Part shown: positions 16,077-34,335 of the stretch, one piece after another
Layout of the letters: the number at the start of each line of letters is the position of its first letter
Numbering within the stretch: position 1 is the first letter of the stretch
From: Citrus sinensis
Lineage: Eukaryota; Streptophyta; Magnoliopsida; Sapindales; Rutaceae
NCBI RefSeq assembly: GCF_022201045.2
Contig: NC_068558.1
Coordinates: forward strand, 41,559,501 to 41,623,500
DNA length: 64,000 bases
Reading direction: 5' to 3'
The notes under the pieces: generated by a model
Seen by the model: only the letters and a program-made list of their open reading frames with translations
Told to the model about the DNA's origin: nothing
Databases searched by the model: none
Translations under genes and position numbers: made by a program

Positions 16077-16751
16077 TATTTGAGGGAAATACTCCGACGA
16101 GACCAAACGTGATGAGCAGATGTTTGGTGGCAGAAGTCTGCGAGCAGGTGTGTCCTGTAAGAGCCAGGTAACAGGGGCAGGAATATTCTGCTCATCCACG
16201 AGCAGGTTATCCGCGAGGCCAATTTCCTGTAAGAAGCATAAAGCCATTCCTACTGTATTCTCGCTAAGGGTTTATTCGAGGAGACCCAGTCAACGACAGT
16301 TGGCAAGGCATGCTCTCCAGCCCGAGAATCTAGGCACGAAGGCCACGCAACCACCCACGACTACGGAAATGAGGAATCCACGTTCGAGAGGTGGGAGGAT
16401 AACGGGCGTAGACTGTGGAAAACTGGGATTCAGAGGAAGCCTATAAAAAGGTAGCCAACGAAGGTAAAAGGGTTAGCAATTTTGAGACTAGAAGAGAGAT
16501 AAAAGCCATTCTAAAAGAGAGAAAACAACCTAACAGCCATAAGATTTGTGGCAAGCGTTCCCCGAACCTTCATATCTGACTTGAGCGTCGGAGGGTTTGC
16601 GTCGGAAAAACAACCGGCGTACTCTGACCTGTCTGTGTGCGCAGGAACCACTGGAGAAGAAACTTTACGAGGAGAAATCTTGGTCGTGGTGAAGTTGATC
16701 GAGCAGAGACCCTGGTCGTAGAACGAGGACAACCAGAATCTCGCATCAACA
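16077..16751 (+). repeat. 5' LTR of the Tat-lineage element
   Basis: 675 bp, paired with 33661-34335 and ending in the same CATCAACA. It contains a TATA-like CTATAAAAAGG at about 16441-16451. The first bases read TATTTGAGG against TGTTTGAAGG in the partner. Confidence 0.9.
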
Positions 16752-16772: not shown

Positions 16773-17400
16773 GCTGAGCAAAAAGCTTATTTTGATAGCA
16801 AGAAGAGAAGGGAAAGAGCTGAAAAGCATGAAGCAGGGAGAGCAAGAAACCCTTCGGGAATTCATCAAGAGGTTTCATCGTGTTGTCCTCGACTTGGGAG
16901 CATTCAACCACCCTCAGGCGTTAAGGGGATTGAAAGAAGGGGTGAAGATAGGAAGGTTGTGGTACAAGAACGGATGACAAGAACCTGTAGAGGATCTGGA
17001 AACAGTAAGCCTGGGACCAGAGAATCCGGGAAAGACGATCAGAATCGGGTCGAGACTTAAGGGAGAGCAAAAGCAGGAGTTGGTGAAATGCTTACAGGCT
17101 CATGCAGATGTGTTTGCTTGAACACACGAAGACATGCCAGGGATTGACCCTGAGGTAGCATGTCAAAAGTTGGCAATAAAGAAAGGTGCTCGGGCAGTAC
17201 GGCAGAAGAGGGGGTGCTTCAACCAGGAGAGGTATGAGGCCATAAATGGCGAGGTGGAGAAGCTCTTGAGAGTAGGGTTCATTCGGGAAGTCAATTACCC
17301 TGAATGGATATCGAATGTGGTGTTGGTAAAAAAAGCAAATGGCAAGTGGAGGATGTGTGTGGACTTCACAGACCTTAACAAGGCGTGCCCAAAAGACAGC
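16773..17400 (+). pseudogene. gag remnant and start of reverse transcriptase (Tat element, left of the nested insertion)
   Basis: A short gag-like stretch (EQETLREFIKRFHRVVLDLG) is followed closely by the N-terminal part of reverse transcriptase (GFIREVNYPEWISNVVLVKK, then WRMCVDFTDLNKACPKDS). The coding sequence stops at the target site of the nested element and resumes at 29933. It is a fossil, much shorter than a full gag plus protease region. Confidence 0.8.
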
Positions 17401-18784
17401 TGTTGAGTATTAGAAAATGCATATTTATAAAGGAGAAAACCGTTATTTTACATTTTAAGTCTTACTAACAACCCTTACTTTTATATATTTAACCTTCTTG
17501 TGATTTAATTACATGTGTTTTATTTTAATTAAGTATTTTATGTATTTTAGGGGCATTATAGTCATTTCACAATAAAGGAGAGATCAGACGGCAAAACGGA
17601 CATCACTTTTGAACTCAGGACGGTCGAAAACCTTAGGAGGAGCATAAAAGGAAAAATGACACTATTCACATGTACGGTACTATTCACGTGTACGGTACTG
17701 TATACGTTACTGTTCACGACACTGTTCACATAGACGGATGATGACGTGGCATTGACCGATGATGTGGCATTGACTGATGAGGTGTCACGATCCTGTTGGA
17801 CTAAAATTCTTATGTACTGTTGATGGTGACGTGGCAGCATATCAGTGGACGAAAAATCTCGCGTACGGTGCATGCATCACACAGGATTATTTTCAACCAA
17901 ACCGCGTTACTGTTCATCCGGGTCAAACCGCGTTACTGTTCAAAGTCGGGTCAAACCGTGTTACTGTTCATCCGCGTGGTCAAACCGTGGACTGTTGACT
18001 GATGACGTGGCGCAATCCTGAGCGTCCAAACTATTTTTAATCCGATGGCCATGATTTACTCCATGTATCTATAAAAAGGGGGCCTCCCCCCCCTAATTTG
18101 ATATCTCTGAATCCATTTTTGGGATCCATTTTCTGTAATTCCTTCTCCATCTTGTATTTTCTTCGTATTTTAATAAATTTCCATTTTGCCCCTAGTTCAA
18201 TTATGAGTGGCTAATTTTCTTTCAAGCTTGGGTTGAAGGTGAAGTCTCAACATGTGTCATGGGCTTAATTTGGTAAATTTATTTTCTCTTCCCCTCTAAT
18301 TTTTGTGGATGTTTTGACTTCTCGTCGACAAATAATAATAGTCTTGTCTAGATACCGCCTTGGTTACACCGGCTCTCTAGTATAAGGTTATTATTATTTG
18401 GCACGATAAGCCCTTAGCACCATATTGATTAGAGCGTGGTTCATGAGGTGTGGATTCCCCCCTCATGATTTAATTGGCATTAATACGGATTATTTAGCCC
18501 ATGATGCATGTTGATACGGATCCAGATACCCAAGTACGTCATTTCAATAGAATTCTCTTCAATTCATTCTCGCCATTTCAATTCCAGTTTTAGAATTTAT
18601 TCTCGCCATTTTAATTTAAGTTTTAGCATATTCCAAATCATTTCCACCATAAATCCAATCACCCATTTACAAAATTAATTCTACACAATTAAAATCCACC
18701 TCCTCGTGGGATCGACACTCGTCACCATAGATCTATACTACAATAGATTCGTGCGCTTGCGAGTACATTAAAATTTGCACAACA
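17401..18784 (+). repeat. 5' LTR of the Athila-lineage element
   Basis: 1384 bp, beginning TGTTGAG and ending CACAACA. A TATA box (TATAAAAA) lies at 18070-18077. Upstream is a block of short repeats rich in TTACTGTTCA and GACGTGGCA motifs. Three TGACGTGG sites (17742, 17827 and 18003) match bZIP-type binding motifs, which suggests stress- or hormone-linked transcription (inference). AATAAA near 18170 may serve as the poly(A) signal. Confidence 0.92.
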
Positions 18785-18790
18785 AGTTTT

Positions 18791-18808
18791 TGGCGCCGTT
18801 GCCGGGGA
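18791..18808 (+). other. Primer binding site of the Athila-lineage element
   Basis: TGGCGCCGTTGCCGGGGA, six bases after the LTR, is the primer site typical of Athila and related Ty3/gypsy elements. Confidence 0.85.
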
Positions 18809-19149
18809 GGTAAGTAATTTTAATTCATAGAATTAATTTTTGTGAATAATTTCTTTTATTTGTTTTCTTGTATTTTTTTTTATTATTAAAAAAAAAAAGT
18901 GAATCTACATTTAAAGGTTAGTATTTCTTTTCTTTTTCTCTTCTTTAAAATTTTGTAATTTAATTTTCCATTTATTTTTCTTTGTAATTTTTTTTGTTTA
19001 TCTTATTAATTTAATTTTTAGTTAATTTCTTTCACGTATTTATTTTTGTGTATTTTTATAGAAAGGTTGTAATAGCGCAATAAGGTTAGTATCGTAATTT
19101 CTCCCTCTTCTTTATTTTTATTTGTTTTGTTCCCATCTTTATTTTTGTT
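18809..19149 (+). other. Leader between primer site and gag-pol
   Basis: About 340 bases of T-rich leader with no ORF of note; a normal untranslated leader for this lineage. Confidence 0.6.
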
Positions 19150-22100
19150 TTGTTTGCATCTTTATTTTTATTTTATTTATTTTGCATGCATGGTCGTAGG
19201 TCATTATTACCTAATCTTGAACCTATAGACCTTGAATTAGAAAAAACACTTCGCACACACAAACACGTTAAAAATAAAATGGATTTACAAGCACCACAGG
19301 AGAGGCCATTTAAGGACTATTTTAGTCCCTTAGCTAATTTGAGCACGTCATGCATAAGATACCCAAATGTAGCTGCTAGGAGTTTTGAATTAAAACCTAG
19401 TGTGTTAAATTGTCTCCCTACATTTTATGGCCTAGAAAATGAGGATCCATATAATCATTTGAATGATTTTCATGCCATTTGTCAAACATTCAAATATGAG
19501 AATTTTTCAGATGATGATGTTAAACTTAGACTATTCCCATTTTCTTTAAAAGATAGAGCTCGTTCATGGCTTAATACATTGCCTGCTAATAGCATTGCAT
19601 CATGGGAACAAATGGTTACAAAATTTTTAAATAAATATTTCCCAGTGCATAAAACCAATGCTATTCGCAGGGAAATCTCGGAGTTTACCCAGAAAGATGA
19701 CGAGCAATTTTTCGAAACATGGGAGCGATTCAATGGGCTACTCTTGAAGTGTCCACATCATGGGTACGAGAAATGGCACCAATGCCAATACTTTTTGGAG
19801 GGATTATTGCCGAATGTGCAAGAATGGCTAATGGCAACGAGTGGAGGAGAGCTAATGTCAAAAAGTGCATCAGAGATTTGGGAATTCTTCCAGCGACAAG
19901 CAGATAATTCCCAACAACGGAGTCGATCACTCAGGACTACTAGAAGAATTAAAGGAGTGAATGAGGTTCAAATTGGCGAATCAAGTTCAGAAATTAAAGA
20001 AGTCAAAGCGATAATTGAAGGTCTCTCTCGACAAATAGCATCATTATCGACTGCTAAATCAACAGAGCCACATGACCATGACTCATACTCAGATCAAGCC
20101 AATGCCATAGGTGTAATGAGAAAGCCATCAAATTACAACCCATACTCCAACACATATAACCCTGGATGGAGAGACCACCCCAATTTTTCATGGTCTCAAG
20201 GATTCCAACAGAATGGACCAACAGCTCCAGCTCCACCAATTCCACAAAATCCTCAAGCCTCTCAGCCCCCATTTAGACCATTCAATCAGAATCAGAACTA
20301 CTCTCAACCCAGACCATGGGAGGATGCATTCCAAAATTTCAAGAATGTTACTCACTCCACGATTGAGCAACAGAACCGCACCATTGATGGACTACGAAAT
20401 GAGTTGAGAGCGGGCTTCAACTCACAAGCCCAATCAGTTTCAAGCCTCGAGAAGATGGTGGGACAACTCGCTTCTTCAGTTCAGACCTTGGCAATGACTG
20501 TTGAGAAAGGAAAATTTCCAAGTCAACCAGTGCCTAATCCTAAAGGAGTGCATGAAGCGAGTACTAGTTCACCACAGCAACATGGAGAGGTCAAAGCAGT
20601 AATGACCTTGCGAAAAGGAAAGGAAGTCGACAACAAAGTGGAGATGCTGGTGACAAAAGAAAATCAAATTGTACCTGTGAATGTTGAAGACTCATCACCG
20701 GAGGAGAAAGAAGAAACCAACCCACGAGAATACGTTCCGAAAGCTCCATTTCCTCAAAGGTTAGCGAAAGGAAAGAAGGGAAAATCCACAGGTGAGATTC
20801 TCGAAATCTTCAAACAGGTAAGTGTTAATATCCCTTTGCTTGATGCTATTAAACAAGTTCCATCTTATGCCAAGTTTCTTAAAGACCTTTGTACTAAAAA
20901 GAGAAATATGCATGTTCAAAAGAAGGCATTTTTAACAGAAAACGTTAGTTCTATACTCCAACATAAAATTCCTTTAAAATGCAAAGACCCTGGCTCCCCC
21001 ACTATCTCATGTAGTATAGGGAACCACACAATTGAGAATGCTTTGTTGGATTTAGGAGCTAGTGTAAATCTTTTGCCTTACTCTGTATTCGTGAAACTTG
21101 GACTGGGAGAATTACACCCAACTCCAGTGGTGTTACAGCTTGCAGATCGGTCCACGAAAATACCTCGTGGTATTGTGGAGGACGTGCTTATCCAGGTAGA
21201 CAAGTTTTATTTTCCTGTTGATTTCATTGTAATTGACACTCAACCAATACAGGATTCAAGGAAGCACATCCCCATTATTCTAGGCCGACCTTTCTTGGCA
21301 ACTGCGGATGCTCACATTCAATGCAGGACTGGAAATATGCAGTTGTCCTTCGGCAACATGACTATGGAACTGAACATCTTCAACATTGCCAAACAACCTC
21401 ACAATGCAGATGATGGAATTGTTGATGTGGATTTAATTGAAGCATTAGTTGATGATACTTTTGTTTCAAACCTTAGTGATGATCCTTTACAAACATGTTT
21501 AACTCACTTTGGTTTTGATTTTGATATTGACAGATCGGTTGATGAGGTCAACGCCCTGCTTGACTCAGCACCATCTATGGACACTAATAAATGGAAGTCA
21601 AGAGTTGAACAACTAGCACCATCAGAGAAGAAACTCATCCCATCATCAGAATCACCACCGAAACTCGAGCTCAAACCATTACCCAACACATTGGAATATG
21701 CATTTTTGGGAGAAGAAAGTACTCTACCGGTAATCATCTCATCATCCCTCAATGACGAACAAAAAGGTAAGTTGTTGGATGTTTTAAAAGAGCACAAAGG
21801 AGCATTAGGATGGACCATAGCAGACATCAAAGGTATAAATCCAGTAGACTGCATGCATTACATTCACCTTGATGAAAATGCTAAATCTACTAGGGAAATG
21901 CAACGTCGGTTAAATCCTAATATGAAAGAAGTTGTTAGAATTGAAGTCCTTAAGCTATTAGATGCAGGTATCATTTACCCAATTTCTGATAGTTCATGGG
22001 TCAGTCCTGTACAAGTTGTCCCCAAAAAGTCAGGAGTCACAGTAGTTACGAATGCAGATAATGAATTGATACCCACTAGAGTAACTACAGGGTGGCGTGT

Positions 22101-24567
22101 ATGCATCGATTATAGGAAATTGAATTCTGTCACACGTAAAGACCATTTTCCTTTACCATTTATTGATCAAATGCTTGATAGATTAGCAGGCCATGAATTT
22201 TATTGCTTTCTAGATGGCTACTCAGGATATAATCAGATCCCCATAGCACCAAAAGATCAAGAGAAAACTACTTTCACTTGCCCTTTTGGCACATTTGCAT
22301 ATAGGAGAATGCCATTTGGATTATGTAATGCACCTGCTACATTTCAACGATGTATGTTGAGCATTTTTTCTGATATGGTTGAACGATTCCTTGAAGTCTT
22401 TATGGATGACTTTTCTGTCTTTGGTGACTCGTTTGATCAATGTTTACATCATCTAACGCTAGTTCTGCAGAGATGTACCGAGAAGAGCTTAGTCTTAAAT
22501 TGGGAGAAGTGCCATTTTATGGTAAAACAAGGTATTGTTCTCGGTCACATCATTTCGAGCAAAGGTATTGAGGTTGACAAAGCCAAGGTGGATCTCATTT
22601 CTAATCTCCCTCCACCTAAAACAGTCAGAGAAGTAAGATCTTTCCTTGGGCATGCTGGTTTCTATAGACGTTTCATTAAAGATTTTAGCAAAGTTTCTAG
22701 ACCCTTATGCAATTTACTTGCTAAGGATGTACCTTTTATCTTTAATGATTCATGTCTTATGGCTTTTGAAAAATTAAAGCAATTGTTGACATCATCACCC
22801 ATCATTCAGGCCCCAAACTGGAGCTTACCATTTGAGCTTATGTGTGATGCATCTGATTATGCAGTAGGAGCAGTTTTAGGACAAAGAGTTGATCGAATTC
22901 CTCATGTTATTTACTATGCTAGTATGACATTGAATGATGCACAGTTGAACTATTCAACTACTGAAAAAGAAATGCTAGCAGTAGTGTTTGCATTGGAAAA
23001 ATTTCGATCTTATCTCATTGGTTGTAAAATAATTATATTCACAGATCATGCTGCTCTTAAATATCTTCTCACAAAGAAAGATGCAAAAGCCAGACTAATT
23101 CGTTGGGTGTTACTTTTGCAGGAATTTGACTTGGAATTCAAAGATAAAAAAGGGATAGAAAATGTTGTGGCGGACCACCTCTCTCGTCTCCATTTTGACA
23201 CAATTATAGAACAATTACCATTAAATGAGTCATTTCCAGATGAACAATTAATGAGTGTGGAAGTATTACCTTGGTATGCTGATATAGTTAATTATCTTGT
23301 TACAGGTAAACTTCCAGAGCATTGGACCAAGCAAGACAAGGCTAAATTCTTTGCAGAGATAAAGAATTTCTTTTGGGATGACCCGTATTTGTTCAAGTAT
23401 TGTGCGGATCAAATTGTTAGACGATGTGTCCCAGAAAGTGAAATTCAGAATATCCTTTCATTCTGCCATGAACAAGCTTGTGGAGGCCATTTCAGTGCTA
23501 AGAAGACAGCGACTAAAGTTTTACAATGTGGTTTCTATTGGCCATCTATATTTCGAGACGCTTACACTTTCTGTTCTTCATGTGATAGGTGTCAACGAAT
23601 GGGAAGCATTACACGAAGGAACATGATGCCACTAAATCCAATTTTAGTGGTTGAGATTTTTGACGTATGGGGTATCGACTTCATGGGACCCTTTCCCCCT
23701 TCTTTTGGCCATCAATACATATTGGTTGCTGTTGACTACGTATCAAAATGGGTAGAAGCAATTCCATGTAGGACCAATGATCACAAGGTGGTGATAGCAT
23801 TTTTGAAAAGCAACATTGTTTCACGCTTTGGATTCCCTCGAGCGATAATCAGTGATGGTGGTGCCCACTTTTGTAACAAAGCATTCAAGGCTCTTTTGAC
23901 AAAGTATTCAATCACACACAAAGTGGCGACCCCGTATCATCCGCAAACCAGTGGCCAAGTTGAGATCTCCAATCGAGAAATAAAGCACATATTAGAAAAA
24001 ACGGTGAGGCCAGACAGAAAAGATTGGTCATTAAGACTTGATGATGCATTATGGGCATATAGAACGGCTTTCAAGACCCCAATTGGGATGTCACCCTACA
24101 GGCTAGTGTATGGAAAAGCTTGCCACCTACCTGTGGAACTCGAGCATCGTGCATATTGGGCCATCAAGAAATTCAACTTTGACATGCAGCAAGCCAGCTC
24201 AGAAAGAAGATTACAGCTGGCAGAACTTGAAGAAATTCGCAATGATGCATACGAAAATGCCAAAATTTACAAGCAACGAATGAAAGTCTTCCATGATAAG
24301 CAAATTATGAGAAAATCGTTCACTCCAGGTCAGAAAGTGCTTTTATTCAATTCTCGCTTGCACCTATTCCCAGGTAAGTTACGCTCTCGTTGGTCTGGTC
24401 CCTTTATTGTTCATACTGTTTTTCCACATGGGGCAATTGAAATTAAGGACCCAAAGAACGGTGTCACGTTTAAAGTTAATGGTCAAAGATTAAAGCCATA
24501 TCTAGAATACCAACCACGTGGAGAAGACACCGAAATAAATTTGAGTGACCCACCAGATTTGAATTGA
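19150..24567 (+). CDS. Athila-lineage gag-pol polyprotein
   Basis: One open frame of 1805 codons; translation may start at the ATG at 19150 or at 19186 ([13 protein letters not shown]). Parts in order: gag (about residues 40-500, with [20 protein letters not shown] and CPHHGYEKW), a Pro/Gln-rich linker, aspartic protease (about 610-730, [14 protein letters not shown]), reverse transcriptase (about 940-1160, [11 protein letters not shown] and FMDDFSVF), RNase H (about 1200-1330, [15 protein letters not shown]), integrase zinc finger (H-H-C-C around 1440-1480), integrase core (about 1505-1640, [25 protein letters not shown]) and a C-terminal tail. As in other Ty3/gypsy elements the polyprotein would make capsids, copy RNA and integrate. 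The frame looks whole. Confidence 0.95.
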
Positions 24568-24696
24568 TTTTTTTTTTCTTTCTTTTCGTTGATTTGATTT
24601 TGTTTTCTTTCTTTATATTATTCTTTTGCTAATTGAAATTGTTTTTGCATAAGTGTGTTTATTTTACCATTAAGTTTTCTCTTATCATTGTTAATC

Positions 24697-24930
24697 ATGA
24701 GTCTCATACTTAGGCCGTTCCTCCTGAACATTCTTAAACCACTTCAACGTGTCAAAACTCATCTCAAAAGGCAGATTCAATTTTGTAAAACACAACGCAT
24801 TTGGGCTCTACAACCACCAGAGTTAGTAGCCTATGTTGAGGGTTTAGAAAGCCAACTCAGAGACATTGAGAGAAGTGTTTACGACATCCAGTTGGAGCTT
24901 GAGGTAAATTCAATAAGAGGACGATTTTAA
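24697..24930 (+). CDS. Small ORF after gag-pol (hydrophobic N-terminus, helical C-terminus)
   Basis: An ORF that may start at 24655 or, more plausibly, at 24697. It has a short hydrophobic segment (LILRPFLLNILKPL), a basic stretch (RVKTHLKRQIQFCK) and a heptad-like acidic helix (VEGLESQLRDIERSVYDI). It sits about 130 bases after gag-pol. I do not recognise it; it could be a remnant of an env-like reading frame, a small accessory protein or chance. Confidence 0.35.
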   Translation: MSLILRPFLLNILKPLQRVKTHLKRQIQFCKTQRIWALQPPELVAYVEGLESQLRDIERSVYDIQLELEVNSIRGRF

Positions 24931-25071
24931 TTTTCTTTGTGTGTTTTAATTTGTTTTTCTGTTTGTGTGCTTTAGTTTGTTACCCCGGTGAAGTGGCGGA
25001 TAACGGTACTCCGTGACAATCAAGTCGGTTACTTCAGTTTCCTATAATAACTGATATTCTGAGGCGAAGGT

Positions 25072-25629
25072 ATGGACAGAAACGAGATTCTAACGAAGCT
25101 TCACAAGCGATTCCCTTCACTTCCTCAGAATGCCCTCCTTACGATCTATAAAGCTCGGTCCGAACGCATGCGATTACTCATGAGAAATAACATACCTGCT
25201 GACATCCGTTGGTTAATCGAGGCTAAAGTACGATCGGCAGGTGAGTTACCTCCAAAATTTATTGCATACATGCCTGGTTGTGGTAAAGGAAATTATGCAA
25301 GAAAACGACGAGCTCGAAGAATTTCTGTTGCTTGTCATAAGTGTGCCAGAATGAGTTGCAATAAAAACCCATGTTCTTTAGGAATGATGTCTGATAACAG
25401 GGAAGATAAGATTCAATTCATTAGGGATGGCTTGAATAAGGAGTCATTGGATGATATCCTTTTGTCTCTTGAAACGCATCCCAGTGGATATGTGCAAGGA
25501 GCGATTCTCCAGTTATGGCCATTATTCCAGAAAGAGCATGCACGATATAGTCTCGGGAATCTGACTATAAACGACCCTGTTTGCCTGTTTATAAGAAAAC
25601 TGGATGGGAAGCCTATCCTCGACCCATAG
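25072..25629 (+). CDS. Cysteine-rich basic protein resembling carla/allexi/mandarivirus nucleic-acid-binding proteins
   Basis: 185 codons. The core (about residues 70-120) reads GKGNYARKRRARRIS followed by CHKCARMSCNKNPC and, after a gap, IQFIRDGL. This order, a basic YARKRRA run, a C-x2-C...C-x4-C zinc-finger-like cluster, then a short hydrophobic FI-x-x-G segment, is the layout of the cysteine-rich 3'-terminal proteins of carlaviruses, allexiviruses and mandariviruses. Those bind nucleic acid, and several act as silencing suppressors or enter the nucleus (known for the family). The spacing within the cysteine cluster is shorter here. The N-terminal 60 and C-terminal 60 residues are not recognised. 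The ORF lies between gag-pol and the LOG-like ORF in a young element. Origin by capture from a virus, or the reverse, is an inference. Confidence 0.6.
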   Translation: MDRNEILTKLHKRFPSLPQNALLTIYKARSERMRLLMRNNIPADIRWLIEAKVRSAGELPPKFIAYMPGCGKGNYARKRRARRISVACHKCARMSCNKNPCSLGMMSDNREDKIQFIRDGLNKESLDDILLSLETHPSGYVQGAILQLWPLFQKEHARYSLGNLTINDPVCLFIRKLDGKPILDP

Positions 25630-25913
25630 AGGGCGTTCAAGCCGTTTCTGGACGTAAAACCAGAGGAAGATGTGAGCCACAGTCGCAACTACGTGTAAAT
25701 ATCCTTTTACTTTACTGTTATTTTATTTCATTTCACTGTTGTTTTATTGTTTGCATTATTGTCTTTAATAATTTTATTATTGTTTGCTATTTCCTTTTTA
25801 CTGTTTTCTTTTTGACTCGCGAGCCATGTGCTTCATGCGTTATTTGACACTAACATGTTACCTCATTCACAGCTGTGACCCACTATCACCAAGACTCTTA
25901 AATGTGATTTCTT

Positions 25914-26621
25914 TTGTCAAACACTCACAAATTGTTTTTGAGAAATATTCCAATGGCAGCTACTCCCAATAGACAATTCAAGAACATTTGTGTGCTTTCT
26001 GGATTTACCTATGGCAAACATAAAGAGTTCGTTGAGGCAGCCATAGATCTTGGTCGAAGCATAGCAGCGAGAAATTTACATTTGGTGTATGGAGGAGGTA
26101 ACCGAGGGTTATCAAAAATGGTCTCCGAAGCAGCTTTTATCAGAGGAAGTCAAGTGTTAGGCATCATCCCAAGAGTCCTAAAACCATTGGGCAGTTCGTC
26201 TGACTCATCAACTGGAGAAGAGTTAGTCGTCTCAGGTATGCAAGAAAGAATAACTGAAATGCTTAATCATGCTGATGCATTTATTTTCCTTCCAGGAGAT
26301 CTTGCAACACTAGAGGCACTTATCACGCTAGCATCTTGGGCCCATCTGCACATCCACCAAAAACCCATCGGTTTGTTAAATGTCAATAACTTTTATGATG
26401 GCTTTATCGCATTTCTTAACCATGCAATAAAAAACTATTTCATTCCCGCTAATGTGAAAAAACTTTTTATTTGTGCTCACACTGCTAACGAGCTACTTGA
26501 TCTGTTACAAGCTTATAGACCGGAGCCAGACCCCTGGACCTTCGTGTTGGAGCGTCCAAATAATGATGGTAACAGTAGCAGCAGTAAGAAGTACAAATTA
26601 GATTTAACTCTCCGCCTATAA
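25914..26621 (+). CDS. LOG-like cytokinin riboside 5'-monophosphate phosphoribohydrolase homologue carried by the retrotransposon
   Basis: 235 codons from 25914, or 222 from the ATG at 25953 (MAATPNRQFKNICVLSG). LOG enzymes release free, active cytokinin bases from their nucleoside monophosphates in the cytosol or nucleus. Matches run along nearly the whole length: FKNICVLSG, LVYGGGNRGL, VLGIIPRVL, MQERITEML, HADAFIFLPG, TLEALITLASWAHLHIH, KPIGLLNVNNFYD and FICAHTANELL. The family's glycine-rich signature loop after DAFI-LPG is recognisable but only partly kept, so enzyme activity cannot be assumed. There are no introns, whereas plant LOG genes have several, which fits capture from a processed transcript. 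It lies about 280 bases after the cysteine-rich ORF and inside a retroelement with seemingly identical LTRs. Confidence 0.85.
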   Translation: MSNTHKLFLRNIPMAATPNRQFKNICVLSGFTYGKHKEFVEAAIDLGRSIAARNLHLVYGGGNRGLSKMVSEAAFIRGSQVLGIIPRVLKPLGSSSDSSTGEELVVSGMQERITEMLNHADAFIFLPGDLATLEALITLASWAHLHIHQKPIGLLNVNNFYDGFIAFLNHAIKNYFIPANVKKLFICAHTANELLDLLQAYRPEPDPWTFVLERPNNDGNSSSSKKYKLDLTLRL

Positions 26622-26682
26622 ATATTTTCTTCTGTGTTGCACCACCCAGGTGATGTCTTCTAAACTCTACTTCTTTCCTTTC

Positions 26683-26702
26683 AAACATTGAGGACAATGT
26701 TT
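26683..26702 (+). other. Hairpin AAACATTG-AGGA-CAATGTTT
   Basis: An 8-bp perfect stem with a 4-base loop, just upstream of GGTTGGGGGGAGGG. ACATTGAGGACAATGT followed by a G tract is a recurrent feature in plant Ty3/gypsy elements after the coding region. Confidence 0.7.
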
Positions 26703-26800
26703 CGTTCTGGTTGGGGGGAGGGAATAGTCGACAATTGTAGAATTTTGGTTAAGTTTTTACTAATTTTTGTTGTAGAAACTAACTGTTGCTAACTTTTTGT

Positions 26801-27015
26801 GTTGAAGATGGCTGAATATGGAGTGTAGTGACTCTAGAAACGCATCTTCATCGTTTATAAAAAAAAAAAAAAATTCAGACATTTTCTTTTTCTTTATTAT
26901 GTGTTTATGTTTATTTTTCTTCTTTTTAATTTCTCCTCTATAAATATACATTTTCCAACTTTTGAGTCGAAGATGGCTGAATATGGAGTGTAGTTCCTCT
27001 AGAAACGCATCTTCT
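26801..27015 (+). repeat. Two copies of a 50-base element able to fold
   Basis: Copies at about 26801-26851 and 26967-27015 share GAAGATGGCTGAATATGGAG and AGAAACGCATCTTC. Within each, GAAGATG near the start can pair with CATCTTC at the end. An A or T run follows each copy. Confidence 0.6.
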
Positions 27016-28532
27016 TTAAAAAAAAAAAATCATTTTCGTTTTCTATCATTTTACGTGTAACTTTTCTAATTAGTTTTTATGCATCATTTTCACATTTCTG
27101 CATGCATATTTTCCTTTCATGTTTAGAATAGGTTGGGGGGTAGAATGTTGTTTAAAAAAAAAAAAAATTTGTGTGATTTGTTTTAACATTGGGTGACATG
27201 ATTAATTTTAAATTTTAGTATTTGTATTATCTTTGGTCTTAAGTGATGTTACATTATGTTTGCTACTCTACATGTTGATGTCGGAGACATATATGAGTTG
27301 CTTGAAGGAATGAACATGTCATAATAAGTACCAAGTGAGTTTTTGAGCCTATTATTTTTCTTGGAGAATAACCCTTTTGCCCACTCTTTATACAGCTTAG
27401 CAGTTTATTATTTTATACACGATCTCTAAATTACTTTTGAGTTAACCCTAAAAAAAAAAAAATTGTAAAATAAAAAAAAAAGAAAAAAGAAAAAGAAAAA
27501 AGAGTGTGTTGCTACATTTGGAGGCCCATCTAACTAGTAGATATGGAAGGTTATTCAGAGCCCTAAAAGACGATGGAAAGGCCATCTTTGATCCGTTTGA
27601 GCCTTTCTAGCCATCCCTTTTATTAAATATCCATAGTTAACCCTTTTGAGCCTTTAAAAAAAAAAAAACATTTTCTTTGTCAACTTATCATCTTGACCCA
27701 CTCCGATTTGGAGTATTACCCGATGTCTTATAAGTTCCATCACCTATTTATGTTTGAGAAAATGTAAATAATTATGTTGTTCAGTGAAGTTATGCCAAAA
27801 AACAAAAAAAAACAAAAAAAAAACAAAAACAAAAACAAAAACAAAAGTTGTTGTTTCAAAAGAATAAAAATAGGTGAAATCCACCTTGCAACTTCCAAAA
27901 AAAAAAAAAAAATTTCTCTGCATTTTTCTCAAACATACACTTTGTTTTCCTTATTTTCCTTCTTTGTTAGCCATGTCCCTAGCCTACGTTTCATCCTAAT
28001 AAAAGTCCTTCTTGATTTTAGGGAACTATAGTTTGAAGTAGAAGCTAGTTATATGGGCTAAAAAGATGTAGTGATGCATAATTAAAAAAAAAAAAAAGAT
28101 AAATAAAGTGGGTTGACTAACATTTTATTTGACTTGAGATCGTATTATTTCTAAGCTGAGGGCATATTTATTTCATCTTGGTGAGAGCATGTGATATCAC
28201 TTCTTTATTATTTTCTCTCTCAATTACCATTCATTGGAGTGACTATTTTTATTGGGATTAATTTATTTGTGAGAGTGTCACTACTTCCAGTGAGATTTTG
28301 GGGTTTGACATGTCATTCTTGAGAGTAGCTAAAACAAAGTCTACTGGGCTAATTCATGTGGATGGTTGATGTGGGTGTGATGTTGCTTTAGACTAGAGAT
28401 AATGCTTATACTTTTATTTGAGTGTTATCATTAATCTGATGGAATAAATACGAGTGTTTCTATTAAAACAAAAAAAAAAATTATTTTGAATTTGAATTTT
28501 GTTTTCGCTTTATTTGCTAGGGACTAGCAATA

Positions 28533-28548
28533 AGCTGGTTGGGGGGTG
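28533..28548 (+). other. Polypurine tract before the 3' LTR
   Basis: CTGGTTGGGGGGTG directly precedes the TGTTGAG start of the 3' LTR and is the expected primer for plus-strand DNA. Confidence 0.75.
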
Positions 28549-29932
28549 TGTTGAGTATTAGAAAATGCATATTTATAAAGGAGAAAACCGTTATTTTACA
28601 TTTTAAGTCTTACTAACAACCCTTACTTTTATATATTTAACCTTCTTGTGATTTAATTACATGTGTTTTATTTTAATTAAGTATTTTATGTATTTTAGGG
28701 GCATTATAGTCATTTCACAATAAAGGAGAGATCAGACGGCAAAACGGACATCACTTTTGAACTCAGGACGGTCGAAAACCTTAGGAGGAGCATAAAAGGA
28801 AAAATGACACTATTCACATGTACGGTACTATTCACGTGTACGGTACTGTATACGTTACTGTTCACGACACTGTTCACATAGACGGATGATGACGTGGCAT
28901 TGACCGATGATGTGGCATTGACTGATGAGGTGTCACGATCCTGTTGGACTAAAATTCTTATGTACTGTTGATGGTGACGTGGCAGCATATCAGTGGACGA
29001 AAAATCTCGCGTACGGTGCATGCATCACACAGGATTATTTTCAACCAAACCGCGTTACTGTTCATCCGGGTCAAACCGCGTTACTGTTCAAAGTCGGGTC
29101 AAACCGTGTTACTGTTCATCCGCGTGGTCAAACCGTGGACTGTTGACTGATGACGTGGCGCAATCCTGAGCGTCCAAACTATTTTTAATCCGATGGCCAT
29201 GATTTACTCCATGTATCTATAAAAAGGGGGCCTCCCCCCCCTAATTTGATATCTCTGAATCCATTTTTGGGATCCATTTTCTGTAATTCCTTCTCCATCT
29301 TGTATTTTCTTCGTATTTTAATAAATTTCCATTTTGCCCCTAGTTCAATTATGAGTGGCTAATTTTCTTTCAAGCTTGGGTTGAAGGTGAAGTCTCAACA
29401 TGTGTCATGGGCTTAATTTGGTAAATTTATTTTCTCTTCCCCTCTAATTTTTGTGGATGTTTTGACTTCTCGTCGACAAATAATAATAGTCTTGTCTAGA
29501 TACCGCCTTGGTTACACCGGCTCTCTAGTATAAGGTTATTATTATTTGGCACGATAAGCCCTTAGCACCATATTGATTAGAGCGTGGTTCATGAGGTGTG
29601 GATTCCCCCCTCATGATTTAATTGGCATTAATACGGATTATTTAGCCCATGATGCATGTTGATACGGATCCAGATACCCAAGTACGTCATTTCAATAGAA
29701 TTCTCTTCAATTCATTCTCGCCATTTCAATTCCAGTTTTAGAATTTATTCTCGCCATTTTAATTTAAGTTTTAGCATATTCCAAATCATTTCCACCATAA
29801 ATCCAATCACCCATTTACAAAATTAATTCTACACAATTAAAATCCACCTCCTCGTGGGATCGACACTCGTCACCATAGATCTATACTACAATAGATTCGT
29901 GCGCTTGCGAGTACATTAAAATTTGCACAACA
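28549..29932 (+). repeat. 3' LTR of the Athila-lineage element
   Basis: 1384 bp and, by eye, identical to 17401-18784 at a constant offset of 11,148. The small ORFs in the two LTRs are the same. It is followed by the target duplication ACAGC. Confidence 0.92.
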
Positions 29933-32757
29933 ACAGCTTCCCTTTACCAAAGATCGATCAGCTAGTAGATTCAACGGCTGGACACGGTCTGCTCAGTTTC
30001 ATGGATGCGTTCTCGGGATACAACCAAATCCCCATGTACGAGCAAGATAAGGAGAGCACGGCTTTCATCACTAACCAGGGTTTGTTCTGTTACAGGATAA
30101 TGCCATTTGGTCTAAAAAATGCTGAGGTCACCTATCAGAGGCTGGTGAACAAAGTCTTTAAGCCATTGATCGGGAAAACCATGGAGGTGTACGTGGATGA
30201 CATGATCACCAAATCCAAAATCCCGAAGGAACATGTCAGACACCTCGAGGAGACCTTCGGGCTTTTGAGGAAGTATAAGATGAAGCTCAACCCGGAGAAG
30301 TGCGCTTTTGGGGTCGAGTCAGGGAAATTCCTTGGATTCATGGTGAGCCATAGAGGGATTGAAGCAAATCCCGAGAAAATCCAGGCGATTGTGCAGATGA
30401 GGTCTCCTCGTAACCTGAAGGAAATGCAGAGCCTCACGGGGAGGTTGGCGGCGTTGAACAGATTCATATCCAAGGCTACAGATAAGTGTCAGCCATTCTT
30501 TCAAGTGATAAGGAGGGGGAAGAAAACAGAATGGACACCAGAATGCGAGGAAGCCTTCCAGAACTTGAAGCAGTACTTGCAGCAAGCTCCACTACTGTCC
30601 ACACCGAGGGATGGGGACAAGTTATATCTGTATTTGGCGGTATCGGATCGAGCCGCCAGTTCTGTTCTGGTGAGAGAGGAAGAAAGAGTTCAGTATCCGA
30701 TATACTACACCAGTAAGGCCCTACTCGACGCTGAGACCAGATACCCACCGTTGGAGAAATGGGCACTTGCCCTTGTAGTTGCGGCTCGGAAGTTGAGGCC
30801 ATATTTTCAAGCATTCCCAGTCTCGGTAATAACAAACCAGCCATTGCGTCAAACTCTGCACAAGCCAGATGCTTCTGGTCGGCTCGTCAAGTGGGCTATA
30901 GAGCTGAGCGAGTTCGACATAGACTACAAACCCCGAGCAACGATAAAGGCTCAGGCAATGGTCGACTTCGTAGCAGAATTCACAGAGCCTGAAGTGTGTT
31001 TAGACCAGCAAGATGTAGTTACAGACAGTGGCGAAGCTCAAGTATGGCAGATGTCTGTGGATGGGTCGTCAAGGGAGCAGGGTTCGGGAGCAGGGATTGT
31101 ATTGGAAGGCCCTGAGGGAGAGGAGATCTCTTATGCTGTAAAGTTAGAATTCGCAGCCACCAATAACCAGGCAGAGTATGAAGCCTTGATAGCAGGATTG
31201 GAGTTGGCTAAGGCCGTGAGAGCAGATAAGGTGAAGATCAGAACTGATTCCCAGCTGGTCGCGAATTATATCAGTGAAAGATTTCAACCAAGAGAGGAGA
31301 AGATGGAACAGTATTTGAAAATAGTCAGGCGGATGATGGGAAAATTTGAAGCAGTGGAGGTGATACAAATCCCCAGAGAGCAGAATAGTCGAGCAGATAT
31401 TTTGGCCAAGATGGCAGCGGTAGCAGACCCAAAAATGCCAAAGTCGATCCCTCTAGAGGTGAAGTCCAGCCCGAGCATCGAGCAGAATCTGGGGGTATTG
31501 CAGATAGAACAAAAATGCACGTGGATGGACCCAATAACTTCATACCTTAGAGACGGGGTATTGCCACCAGATAAGCTGCGGGCTCGGAAGATTAGAGCCC
31601 AAGCCTCGAGATACACGATGATTGACGGGGTACTGTATCGGCGAGGGTATACACTACCTTTCCTTCGGTGTTTGGATGAGGACGACGCAGATTACGTTCT
31701 AAGGAAAATACATGAAGGAATTTGCGGGAATCATTCTAGTGGGAGGTCCCTGGCCCACAAAGCTCTAAGGCAGGGATATTTCTGGCCGACAATGCACCAG
31801 GATGCACAAGAGAAAACCAGGAGCTGTGTAAGCTGCTAGAGTTTTGCAAGTTTCTCCAACCAACCACCAGAGAAGCTCACCTCTATGGCCTCCCCTTGGC
31901 CATTTGCTCAATGGGGGATTGATCTGATCGGCCCGCTGCCAAAGGGACGAGGAGCAGCAACGCATGTAATAGTTGCCATAGATTACTTCACGAAGTGGAT
32001 TGAGGTCGAAGCCCTTAGCAGGATCACAGAGAAGAAAACAACAGACTTTGTGTGGAGAAACCTGGTATGTCGATACGGGATCCCATATGCCCTGGTAACG
32101 GATAATGGCAGGCAGTTCAATAATCACAGCTTCAGGGATTTCTGCTAGAACCTCGGGATAGAGCTGAAGTATTGCTCGTCTGCTCACCCCCAATCGAATG
32201 GACAAGTAGAAGCAGCCAACAAGACAATCAAGAGGCTTTTGAAAACCAGGCTTTGAGTAAAAAAGGATGCATGGGTTGATGAGCTGTCAAGTGTGCTATG
32301 GGCATACAGAACAACCCACAAAACAGCAACTGGGGAGACACTGTTCGCCCTGGCTTTCAGACATGAAGCGGTCGTGCCAACTGAGATAGGAACGACCACG
32401 CACCGAACAAATCATTTCAATGAGCAGGATAACGATGAGCAGATGTGTCTGAATCTTGATCTGCTAACGGAAAAGAGGGAGCAAGCAGCTGGTCAATCTG
32501 CCATTTACCAGTAAAGGGTTGCTCGTTATTATAACCAGAAGGTGAACATACGGCAGTTTAAGGTCAGAGATTGGGTGTTAAGGAAAGTGAATCAGAACAC
32601 CAAAGACTCGACTCAAGGAGTGCTCGGTCCGAATTGGGAGGGGCCGTATAGAGTCAAGCAGCTAATTGGACCAGGAGCTTACAAGTTGGTTCGCATGGAT
32701 GGCCACGAGGTGAAGCGCCCATGGAACGCAGCACATCTCAGGAAATATTTCCAGTAA
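29933..32757 (+). pseudogene. Tat-lineage pol (right of the nested insertion): RT, RNase H, archaeal-type RNase H, integrase
   Basis: Coding sequence resumes within reverse transcriptase (FMDAFSGYNQIPMYEQDK, IMPFGLKN, VYVDDMITKSK), then RNase H (about 30600-30990), a second, archaeal-type RNase H (about 31050-31430; MSVDGSSREQGSGAGIVLEG, NNQAEYEALIAGL, IRTDSQLVANYI), the integrase zinc finger (to about 31840), the integrase core (about 31890-32270; WGIDLIGPLPKG, VTDNGRQF) and a C-terminal part ending near 32757 (AAHLRKYFQ). The double RNase H is diagnostic for the Tat lineage. The region has several breaks and is a fossil. Confidence 0.88.
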
Positions 32758-33660: not shown

Positions 33661-34335
33661 TGTTTGAAGGAAATACTCCGACGAGACCAGACGTGATGAG
33701 CAGATGTTTGGTGGCAGAAGTCTGCGAGCAGGTGTGTCCTGTAAGAGCCAGGTAACAGGGGCAGGAATATTCTGCTCATCCACGAGCACGTCATCCGCGA
33801 GGCCAATTTCCTGTAAGAAGCATAAAGTCATTCCTGCTGTATTCTCGCTAAGGGTTTATTCGAGGAGACCCAGTCAACGACAGTTGGCAAGGCATGCTCT
33901 CCAGCCCGAGAATCTAGGCACGAAGGCCACGCAACCACCCACGACTACGGAAATAGGGAATCCACGTTCGAGAGGTGGGAGGATAACGGGCGTAGACTGC
34001 GAAAAACTGGGATTCAGAGGAAGCCTATAAAAAGGTAGCCAACAAATGTAAAAGGGTTAGCAATTTTGAGACTAGAAAAGAGATAAAAGCCATTCTAAAA
34101 GAGAGAAAACAACCTAACAGCCATAAGATTTGTGGCAAGCGTTCCCCGAACCTTCATATCTGACTTGAGCGTCGGAGGGTTTGCGTCGGGAAAACAACCG
34201 GCGTACTCTGACCTATCTGTGTGCGCAGGAACCACTGGAGAAGAAACTTTACGAGGAGAGATCCTGGTCGTGGTGAAGTTGATCGAGCAGAGACCCTGGT
34301 CGTAGAACGAGGACAACCAGAATCTCGCATCAACA
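33661..34335 (+). repeat. 3' LTR of the Tat-lineage element
   Basis: 675 bp, begins TGTTTGAAGG and ends CATCAACA, followed by the target duplication ATTTC. It pairs with 16077-16751. Confidence 0.9.

Follow-up and report, generated by a model that had tools for sequence, protein, structure and literature searches.

A LOG-like gene with an altered active site and an LxLxL end beside a viral-type reading frame in an Athila-like retrotransposon of Citrus

The window, i.e. the whole stretch of 64,000 nucleotides of Citrus sinensis DNA analysed here, contains a structurally complete Ty3/Gypsy element spanning positions 17401-29932, whose LTRs, ORFs and priming sites lie on the forward strand. The element is framed by a 5 bp target-site duplication, ACAGC (left copy 17396-17400, right copy 29933-29937), and by LTRs with TG...CA ends at 17401-18784 and 28549-29932, which are the same letter for letter over 1384 of 1384 bp, as a previous sequence-only reading had observed. 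Behind the 5' LTR lies a primer-binding site, TGGCGCCGTTGCCGGGGA (18791-18808), found with identical letters in locus L163 of a second subfamily (B) and presumably of the tRNA-Asp type, and a polypurine-tract-like stretch (28537-28548) precedes the 3' LTR. A single open frame (19150-24567) encodes gag-pol, with gag, aspartic protease, RT, RNase H and integrase domains identified by domain search. It is followed by a small ORF of 77 aa (24697-24930), also present in subfamily B, by an ORF of 185 aa (25072-25629) which profiles liken to viral nucleic-acid-binding proteins with a basic stretch and a Cys-rich finger, and by a LOG-like ORF of 222 aa (25953-26621). The latter indeed sits between gag-pol, which ends at 24567, and the 3' LTR, which starts at 28549.

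The domain search found neither a chromodomain nor an additional RNase H, and extra coding sequence is present 3' of pol. By the criteria given in PMC6317226 (chromodomain, additional RNase H, extra 3' ORF) the element is consistent with Athila, a placement drawn from its Gypsy domains and not from a tree. It is inserted into a second Gypsy element and interrupts the RT gene of the latter, since the flanks, ...KDS and FPLPKID..., share one RT frame. The outer element, whose RT is split in this way, shows repeat copies at 16079-16378 and 33663-33962 that are 97% alike, and its ORF at 29923-31839 includes an additional domain of the RNase H type (RVT_3), expected of Tat-type elements. Within the LOG-bearing element, the non-coding DNA ahead of the 3' LTR contains a 70-base unit twice (26795-26864 and 26960-27029, 84%), with GAAGATG...CATCTTC ends, and internal G-rich stretches at 26709-26723 and 27131-27140 resemble the tract before the 3' LTR (GGTTGGGGGG), being possible extra polypurine tracts. 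A spliced leader for the 3' ORFs was considered, given a perfect donor (GAG/GTAAGTA) after the primer-binding site of the window, and is not claimed because the subfamily B locus L163 has no donor at that place.

The LOG-like ORF is listed from 25914, a TTG; its first ATG, at 25953, is conserved in subfamily B and yields the 222 aa product. That this is a genuine LOG-family gene, as first proposed, is borne out by agreeing matches. The window ORF scores above the curated cut-offs of Pfam Lysine_decarbox (PF03641, 9e-28, 97.5 bits against 27) and TIGR00730 (125.4 bits against 96.35), PDB entry 2a33 matches residues 7-190 in sequence (5e-46), and the predicted model (pLDDT 81.5) matches the same entry with an E-value of 1.9e-20 and a TM-score to target of 0.93, which indicates a predicted Rossmann-type LOG fold. 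The cut-off of the NCBIfam equivalog NF058542 is missed (91.8 bits against 300), and the LDcluster4 ("SLOG cluster4") profile also matches. Among the matches listed, the Citrus host LOG genes (among L059-L067 and L069) carry introns and align to Arabidopsis LOG in intron-broken pieces, whereas the element ORF is unbroken and intronless; hence the capture passed through RNA, in agreement with the sequence-only reading. Of the database relatives with a named host, the best belong to Citrus x changshan-huyou.

Concerning the copies in the Citrus genome, a 27-base pattern was made from the last LOG codons plus stop as they read in subfamily A, to which the window copy belongs. With up to 3 mismatches allowed it is found at 1112 sites, and the backwards-read control at 0. 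No internal stop occurs in 148 of the 150 scored own-genome copies, a figure biased to intact copies because the 150 are the top-ranking part of 2111 first-look candidates, and the top score is common to 14 of the 150. Subfamily B, for which 18 copies share the top E-value, is 75% identical to the window in LOG and 68% in the 185-aa ORF. Related copies do carry the LOG ORF in the same place: the 185-aa ORF is matched upstream of it in all 38 loci L001-L038, being broken in L027. The two are spaced 876-899 bp apart in 41 pairs, which were picked because both members were listed and so display spacing, not linkage frequency. In two older, decayed copies, L068 and L070, pieces of pol, of the 185-aa ORF and of LOG survive, and the motif of L068 is still PGGLGTLEE.

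With the L068 frame as query, 1225 proteins were obtained, the best 120 of which were analysed. Named hosts among these 120 include Populus trichocarpa, P. x canadensis, P. alba, Parasponia, Reevesia and Diplodiscus; most of this wider set consists of metagenome or environmental records, the named ones alone being known as rosids, and two members (P0241, P0242) are 90-92% identical to the Citrus locus L068. The non-Citrus "retro-LOGs" are known here as proteins, and are presumed to lie in retrotransposons. The corresponding search with the 185-aa ORF gave 303 proteins, with Xanthoceras, Acer and Populus named among the best 120 of 303. Among the matches listed, contig sizes above 3 kb recur in both lists for P0140/P0306 (8723) and P0168/P0258 (4511), which suggests that LOG and a 185-aa-type ORF may be linked outside Citrus as well. 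It should be noted that two P. trichocarpa proteins named as probable cytokinin phosphoribohydrolase LOGL10 (P0248 and P0264, outside the tree sequences) have the retro-LOG sequence type and tail, and their host-gene annotation looks doubtful.

Set beside host LOG genes in a tree of 63 sequences, as the sequence-only reading had suggested, the 51 retro-LOGs fall without exception into a single clade (UFBoot 100), whose sister group consists of two Arabidopsis and eight Citrus LOGs; the members of the retro clade from named non-Citrus hosts are P0316 (P. x canadensis), P0284 (Parasponia), P0302 and P0335 (Reevesia) and P0314 (Diplodiscus). A second tree, to which 26 prokaryote loci and two bacterial PDB chains were added, supports the retro-LOGs with 100, the plant LOGs with 100 and both joined with 99, and does not favour a bacterial origin of the captured gene. 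The partial host loci L060 and L061 are left out of the trees, and L068 also of the second. Given a single clade beside the sampled plant LOGs, the capture looks old. It would appear, from a topology that a long branch could mimic, to predate the split between LOG3-like and LOG8-like genes. The LOG-bearing element looks young, yet its LOG gene copy looks old. The prokaryote tree took 27 of 80 candidate loci, and one of them, L080, on a 4.1-kb contig recorded under Mycobacterium (NZ_LZIL01000012.1), has a LOG that falls inside the retro-LOG clade; this contig is probably plant DNA within a bacterial assembly, in which no 185-aa-type ORF was found. A scan of viral_contigs with LOG gave three remote LOGs of 21-25% identity.

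To describe the active site, the window LOG was numbered as the Corynebacterium enzyme (CgLOG) by motif spacing. For the latter, Arg99 and Glu122 have been put forward as the catalytic pair, its phosphate contacts include Gly116, Gly118 and Thr119, and its side-chain pocket seems to be built by Met96, His97, Lys100, Glu125 and Trp129 (PMC4979012). In the window, PGDLATLEA (residues 114-122, 26292-26318) replaces PGGxGTxxE, which confirms that the signature loop is only partly conserved. Arg99 is kept and Glu122 is an Ala; in the phosphate loop Gly116 is an Asp and Gly118 an Ala; and of the side-chain contacts Met96 and Trp129 are kept, with Gln at 97, Ile at 100 and Thr at 125. Subfamily B is likewise altered at Glu122, Gly116, Gly118, Lys100, His97 and Glu125.

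Residues were counted over 12 host rows, 84 wider-set rows and 90 Citrus-set rows, the last two being the usable proteins (at least 190 aa and 200-240 aa, respectively) of 120 each, and gaps reduce n. The core residues Glu122, Gly116 and Gly118 are each present in 84/84 of the wider set (from the best 120 of 1225), as are Thr119 and Glu121, and in 11/12, 11/12 and 12/12 host rows, against 0/89 in the Citrus set for each of the three, where Ala (80), Asp (87) and Ala (80) predominate. The two host departures belong to L060, a partial sequence with an exon-end artefact, and to the stop-bearing locus L069. Arg99 is more widely retained (12/12 host, 83/84 wider set from the best 120 of 1225, 72/82 Citrus, with 10/82 altered). 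The side-chain contacts Lys100, His97 and Glu125, complete in the host (12/12 each), are scarce elsewhere: in the wider set (best 120 of 1225) Lys100 occurs in 3/84, His97 in 17/84 and Glu125 in 3 rows out of at least 83, and in the Citrus set Lys100 and His97 occur in 0/82 and Glu125 is absent from the six commonest residue types. One Citrus genomic copy, L072, reads PGDLATLEE, with Glu at position 122 where the others mostly have Ala, and spoils the clean picture.

The three wider-set proteins with Lys100 (P0289, P0290 and P0327, among the best 120 of 1225) keep 12 of the 12 plant-type site residues tested. P0289 and P0327 branch first within the retro clade, P0290 being outside that tree, and this order suggests, on residue patterns, a stepwise loss, which would have started from a plant-type site and taken first the side-chain pocket and then, in Citrus, the core. 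The Glu-to-Ala change need not destroy the fold, since bacterial structures have Glu (5zbj) as well as Ala (5zbk, an AMP complex) at this position.

These observations bear on the role that the sequence-only reading had put forward, namely that the element's LOG frees active cytokinin and so drives the division of cells in which transposition is inherited. The predicted LOG fold and the retained Arg99 agree with it, and owing to P0289, P0290 and P0327 it could hold for the first captor or for some non-Citrus copies. With all six positions altered in both the window and subfamily B, and Lys100 and Glu125 so rare in the wider set, cytokinin release by the window copy seems unlikely as judged from its residues, and we regard this explanation as very improbable.

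The C-terminus is the second distinctive part of the protein. In the window it consists of a basic cluster, KKYK, and an LxLxL (EAR-type) end, LDLTLRL (26586-26618). Among proteins of at least 205 aa, LxLxL is found in the last 12 residues of 67/80 from the wider set (best 120 of 1225) and 70/87 from the Citrus set, and a basic cluster, which usually precedes it, in the last 20 residues of 77/80 and 77/87, respectively; the shuffle expectation for LxLxL is 0.022 (last 30 residues, wider set, from the best 120 of 1225). In 69 tails chosen for an LxL-like end the last and third-last Leu are conserved by construction, the evidence lying in the unselected counts and in positions -5 (Leu in 68) and -7 (Leu in 60), and the linker before them is varied. 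When A and B are compared over the last seven codons, three bases differ, all of them silently, and the amino acids are the same. LxLxL is absent from the seven host LOG tails read (L059, L060, L061, L062, L065, L067 and L069; those of L063, L064 and L066 were not located), and P0289 and P0290, two of the three relatives with the full plant-type site, end in KRRRLD without it. The tail is disordered in the predicted model of the window LOG, which puts LxLxL in a presumably flexible tail, as in an EAR motif, and the basic cluster may be a nuclear signal. LxLxL may also occur without TOPLESS binding. Motifs of this type recruit TOPLESS and histone deacetylase (PMC10942257).

Site and tail together also bear on a reading in which the pocket has turned to a different nucleotide, perhaps one that signals immunity or stress, binding it in Citrus and cleaving it in other copies, and in which the tail provides nuclear entry only. 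The SLOG family, to which the window LOG is linked by its LDcluster4 match, includes nucleotide-signal binders, and an invariant set of Gly116, Gly118, Thr119, Glu121 and Glu122 in the wider set combined with drifting side-chain contacts is what a changed specificity would produce. The Asp and Ala in the Citrus phosphate loop speak against it, and a bare nuclear signal needs no LxLxL, yet most full-length copies keep that end; we consider it rather unlikely.

Selection was estimated with NG86 and bootstrap between one A and one B representative. The dN/dS is 0.184 (0.11-0.28) for LOG, 0.242 (0.15-0.39) for the 185-aa ORF, 0.118 (0.07-0.22) for RNase H and 0.31 (CI 0.11-0.57) for the 77-aa ORF, whose 77 residues are 53% identical in subfamily B, and the dS of RT and INT is saturated. 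Within subfamily A, the LOGs of L027, L035 and L038 compared with the window give 0.304, 0.114 and 0.193. The LOG values, based on one A-B pair and three within-A pairs, point to purifying selection and away from the neutral decay that the sequence-only reading had set against its proposal. The dS of the 3' module is lower than that of pol and the spacer between the 185-aa ORF and LOG is 83% identical between A and B; the 3' part was therefore probably exchanged between subfamilies by recombination, and for this reason A-B divergence was dropped as a means of dating.

The same values weigh on a further alternative, a functionless captured gene amplified with the element and seeded so recently that it is still undecayed. 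The near identity of many copies, as in the 14 of 150 with a common top score, would hide decay, and lost catalytic residues fit such a passenger. An upper bound of 0.28 on the dN/dS between subfamily representatives, the exclusively silent changes in the last seven codons and the related LOGs in several named rosid genera (among the best 120 of 1225) speak against it, and we give it little credence.

The 185-aa ORF of the window stays below the cut-offs of the PF01623/PF05515 pair, with 16.5 bits against 20.9 for Carla_C4 and 14.2 against 23 for Viral_NABP. Its relatives score better: 51 of 57 aligned ones reach E <= 0.01 for PF05515 and 51 of 57 for PF01623 (best 1.1e-8), P0137 and P0172 exceed both cut-offs, P0134 and P0154 that of PF05515, and P0162 and P0240 that of PF01623, and in the best relatives viewed singly the viral-family alignment covers 80-90 residues. 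A structure search with its model (pLDDT 60) brought up no viral protein at a significant level (best E 0.81), the viral_contigs scan no relative, and its profile no match among PDB sequences. In the viral families, p12 of chrysanthemum virus B is a silencing suppressor and transcriptional activator (PMC7588395), and mandarivirus members are pathogenicity determinants with an NLS and a zinc finger (PMC12172455). Just after the stop of this ORF, the stretch 25630-25700 is strongly conserved in A and B and partly in the old copy L070, and may represent a cis element or an extension made by read-through. Conserved read-through of the stop is not claimed, for the DNA is conserved yet the A-B differences are, by eye, mostly amino-acid changing. 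The 77-aa ORF between pol and the viral-type ORF is conserved too, and has no Pfam match above cut-off.

Taken together, we favour, with belief and doubt about equally balanced, an accessory cassette whose Citrus LOG would act as a nuclear, non-catalytic adaptor for TOPLESS-type co-repressors, as one branch of an old retro-LOG family. An Athila-type element would have captured a plant-lineage LOG as a spliced copy, which would have stayed beside the viral-type ORF and carries the basic cluster and LxLxL. The deepest-branching relatives still have the plant-type site, most other non-Citrus-type copies have the hydrolase core without the side-chain contacts, and most Citrus copies have lost the core. 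The Citrus protein would fold and dimerise like LOG, enter the nucleus and present its EAR motifs to the co-repressors, and in this way dampen host genes opposed to the element, and the neighbouring 185-aa protein may, by analogy with its viral relatives, act on RNA silencing or transcription. More tentatively, and with doubt prevailing, the pair may form a two-protein host-control cassette, combining a virus-type silencing suppressor or transcription factor with a former hormone enzyme that recruits TOPLESS, its enzymatic activity lost in Citrus and its tail under selection.

Several observations count against the adaptor. We know of no DNA-binding part in LOG, so its targeting is left unexplained; P0289 and P0290 have KRRRLD ends, L072 has Glu122, and Arg99 is changed in ten Citrus rows. 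The sub-threshold scores of the window's viral-type ORF and its null fold search and viral_contigs scan also count against the proposal.

Extra ORFs of plant retrotransposons are often of unknown use, and two of them gain testable roles here, one resembling a viral silencing suppressor class and the other looking like a hormone enzyme turned co-repressor adaptor. If true, transposons would deploy virus-like effectors against host silencing and transcription, and the cassette would be a transposon-encoded counterpart to viral and pathogen effectors. A practical point is that the name "cytokinin riboside 5'-monophosphate phosphoribohydrolase" is given in databases to many Citrus and some Populus proteins which are retrotransposon ORFs or look like them, those of Citrus mostly without the catalytic Glu.

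The presence of LOG in Citrus Gypsy elements is already published: PMC9289625, which cites Steinbauerova et al. 2011, describes Gypsy consensuses with a YgdH (LOG) domain from C. sinensis and C. clementina and, under a looser filter, from P. trichocarpa. This publication, like the repressor-type tail, the viral-type neighbour and the apparent age of the capture, had escaped the sequence-only reading. Genus, superfamily and domain are shared with the present element; unlike here, neither a viral-type ORF nor an EAR-type tail is described in the portion of that account available to us, nor are changes of the active site or selection on the LOG ORF. In the accessible text of two reviews of extra ORFs, YgdH is not mentioned (PMC7264820), nor are carlavirus or lysine decarboxylase (PMC6317226), and the titles and abstract beginnings in one literature library yielded no report of a viral-type ORF or EAR motif in such elements. 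New are the single old-looking retro-LOG clade, the loss of catalytic-site residues in most Citrus copies despite low dN/dS, the altered side-chain contacts, the LxLxL end and the viral-type neighbour ORF.

With the plant LOG phosphoribohydrolases AtLOG3 (2a33) and AtLOG8 (1ydh), the window LOG shares the predicted fold, Met96, Arg99, Thr119, Glu121 and Trp129; it differs in lacking introns, in the changes at Glu122, Gly116, Gly118, His97, Lys100 and Glu125, and in its basic/LxLxL tail. With the carlavirus and mandarivirus cysteine-rich proteins (PF01623, PF05515), the 185-aa ORF shares a basic stretch with a short Cys finger behind it, but it sits 3' of pol in a retrotransposon and the window copy scores below the Pfam cut-offs. 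Similar in layout are the AlkB-bearing Gypsy elements of orchids (PMC9289625), in which a host enzyme domain likewise forms a separate ORF after gag-pol; the orchid enzyme is active in vitro, whereas the present Citrus copy, known from its sequence, has no catalytic Glu.
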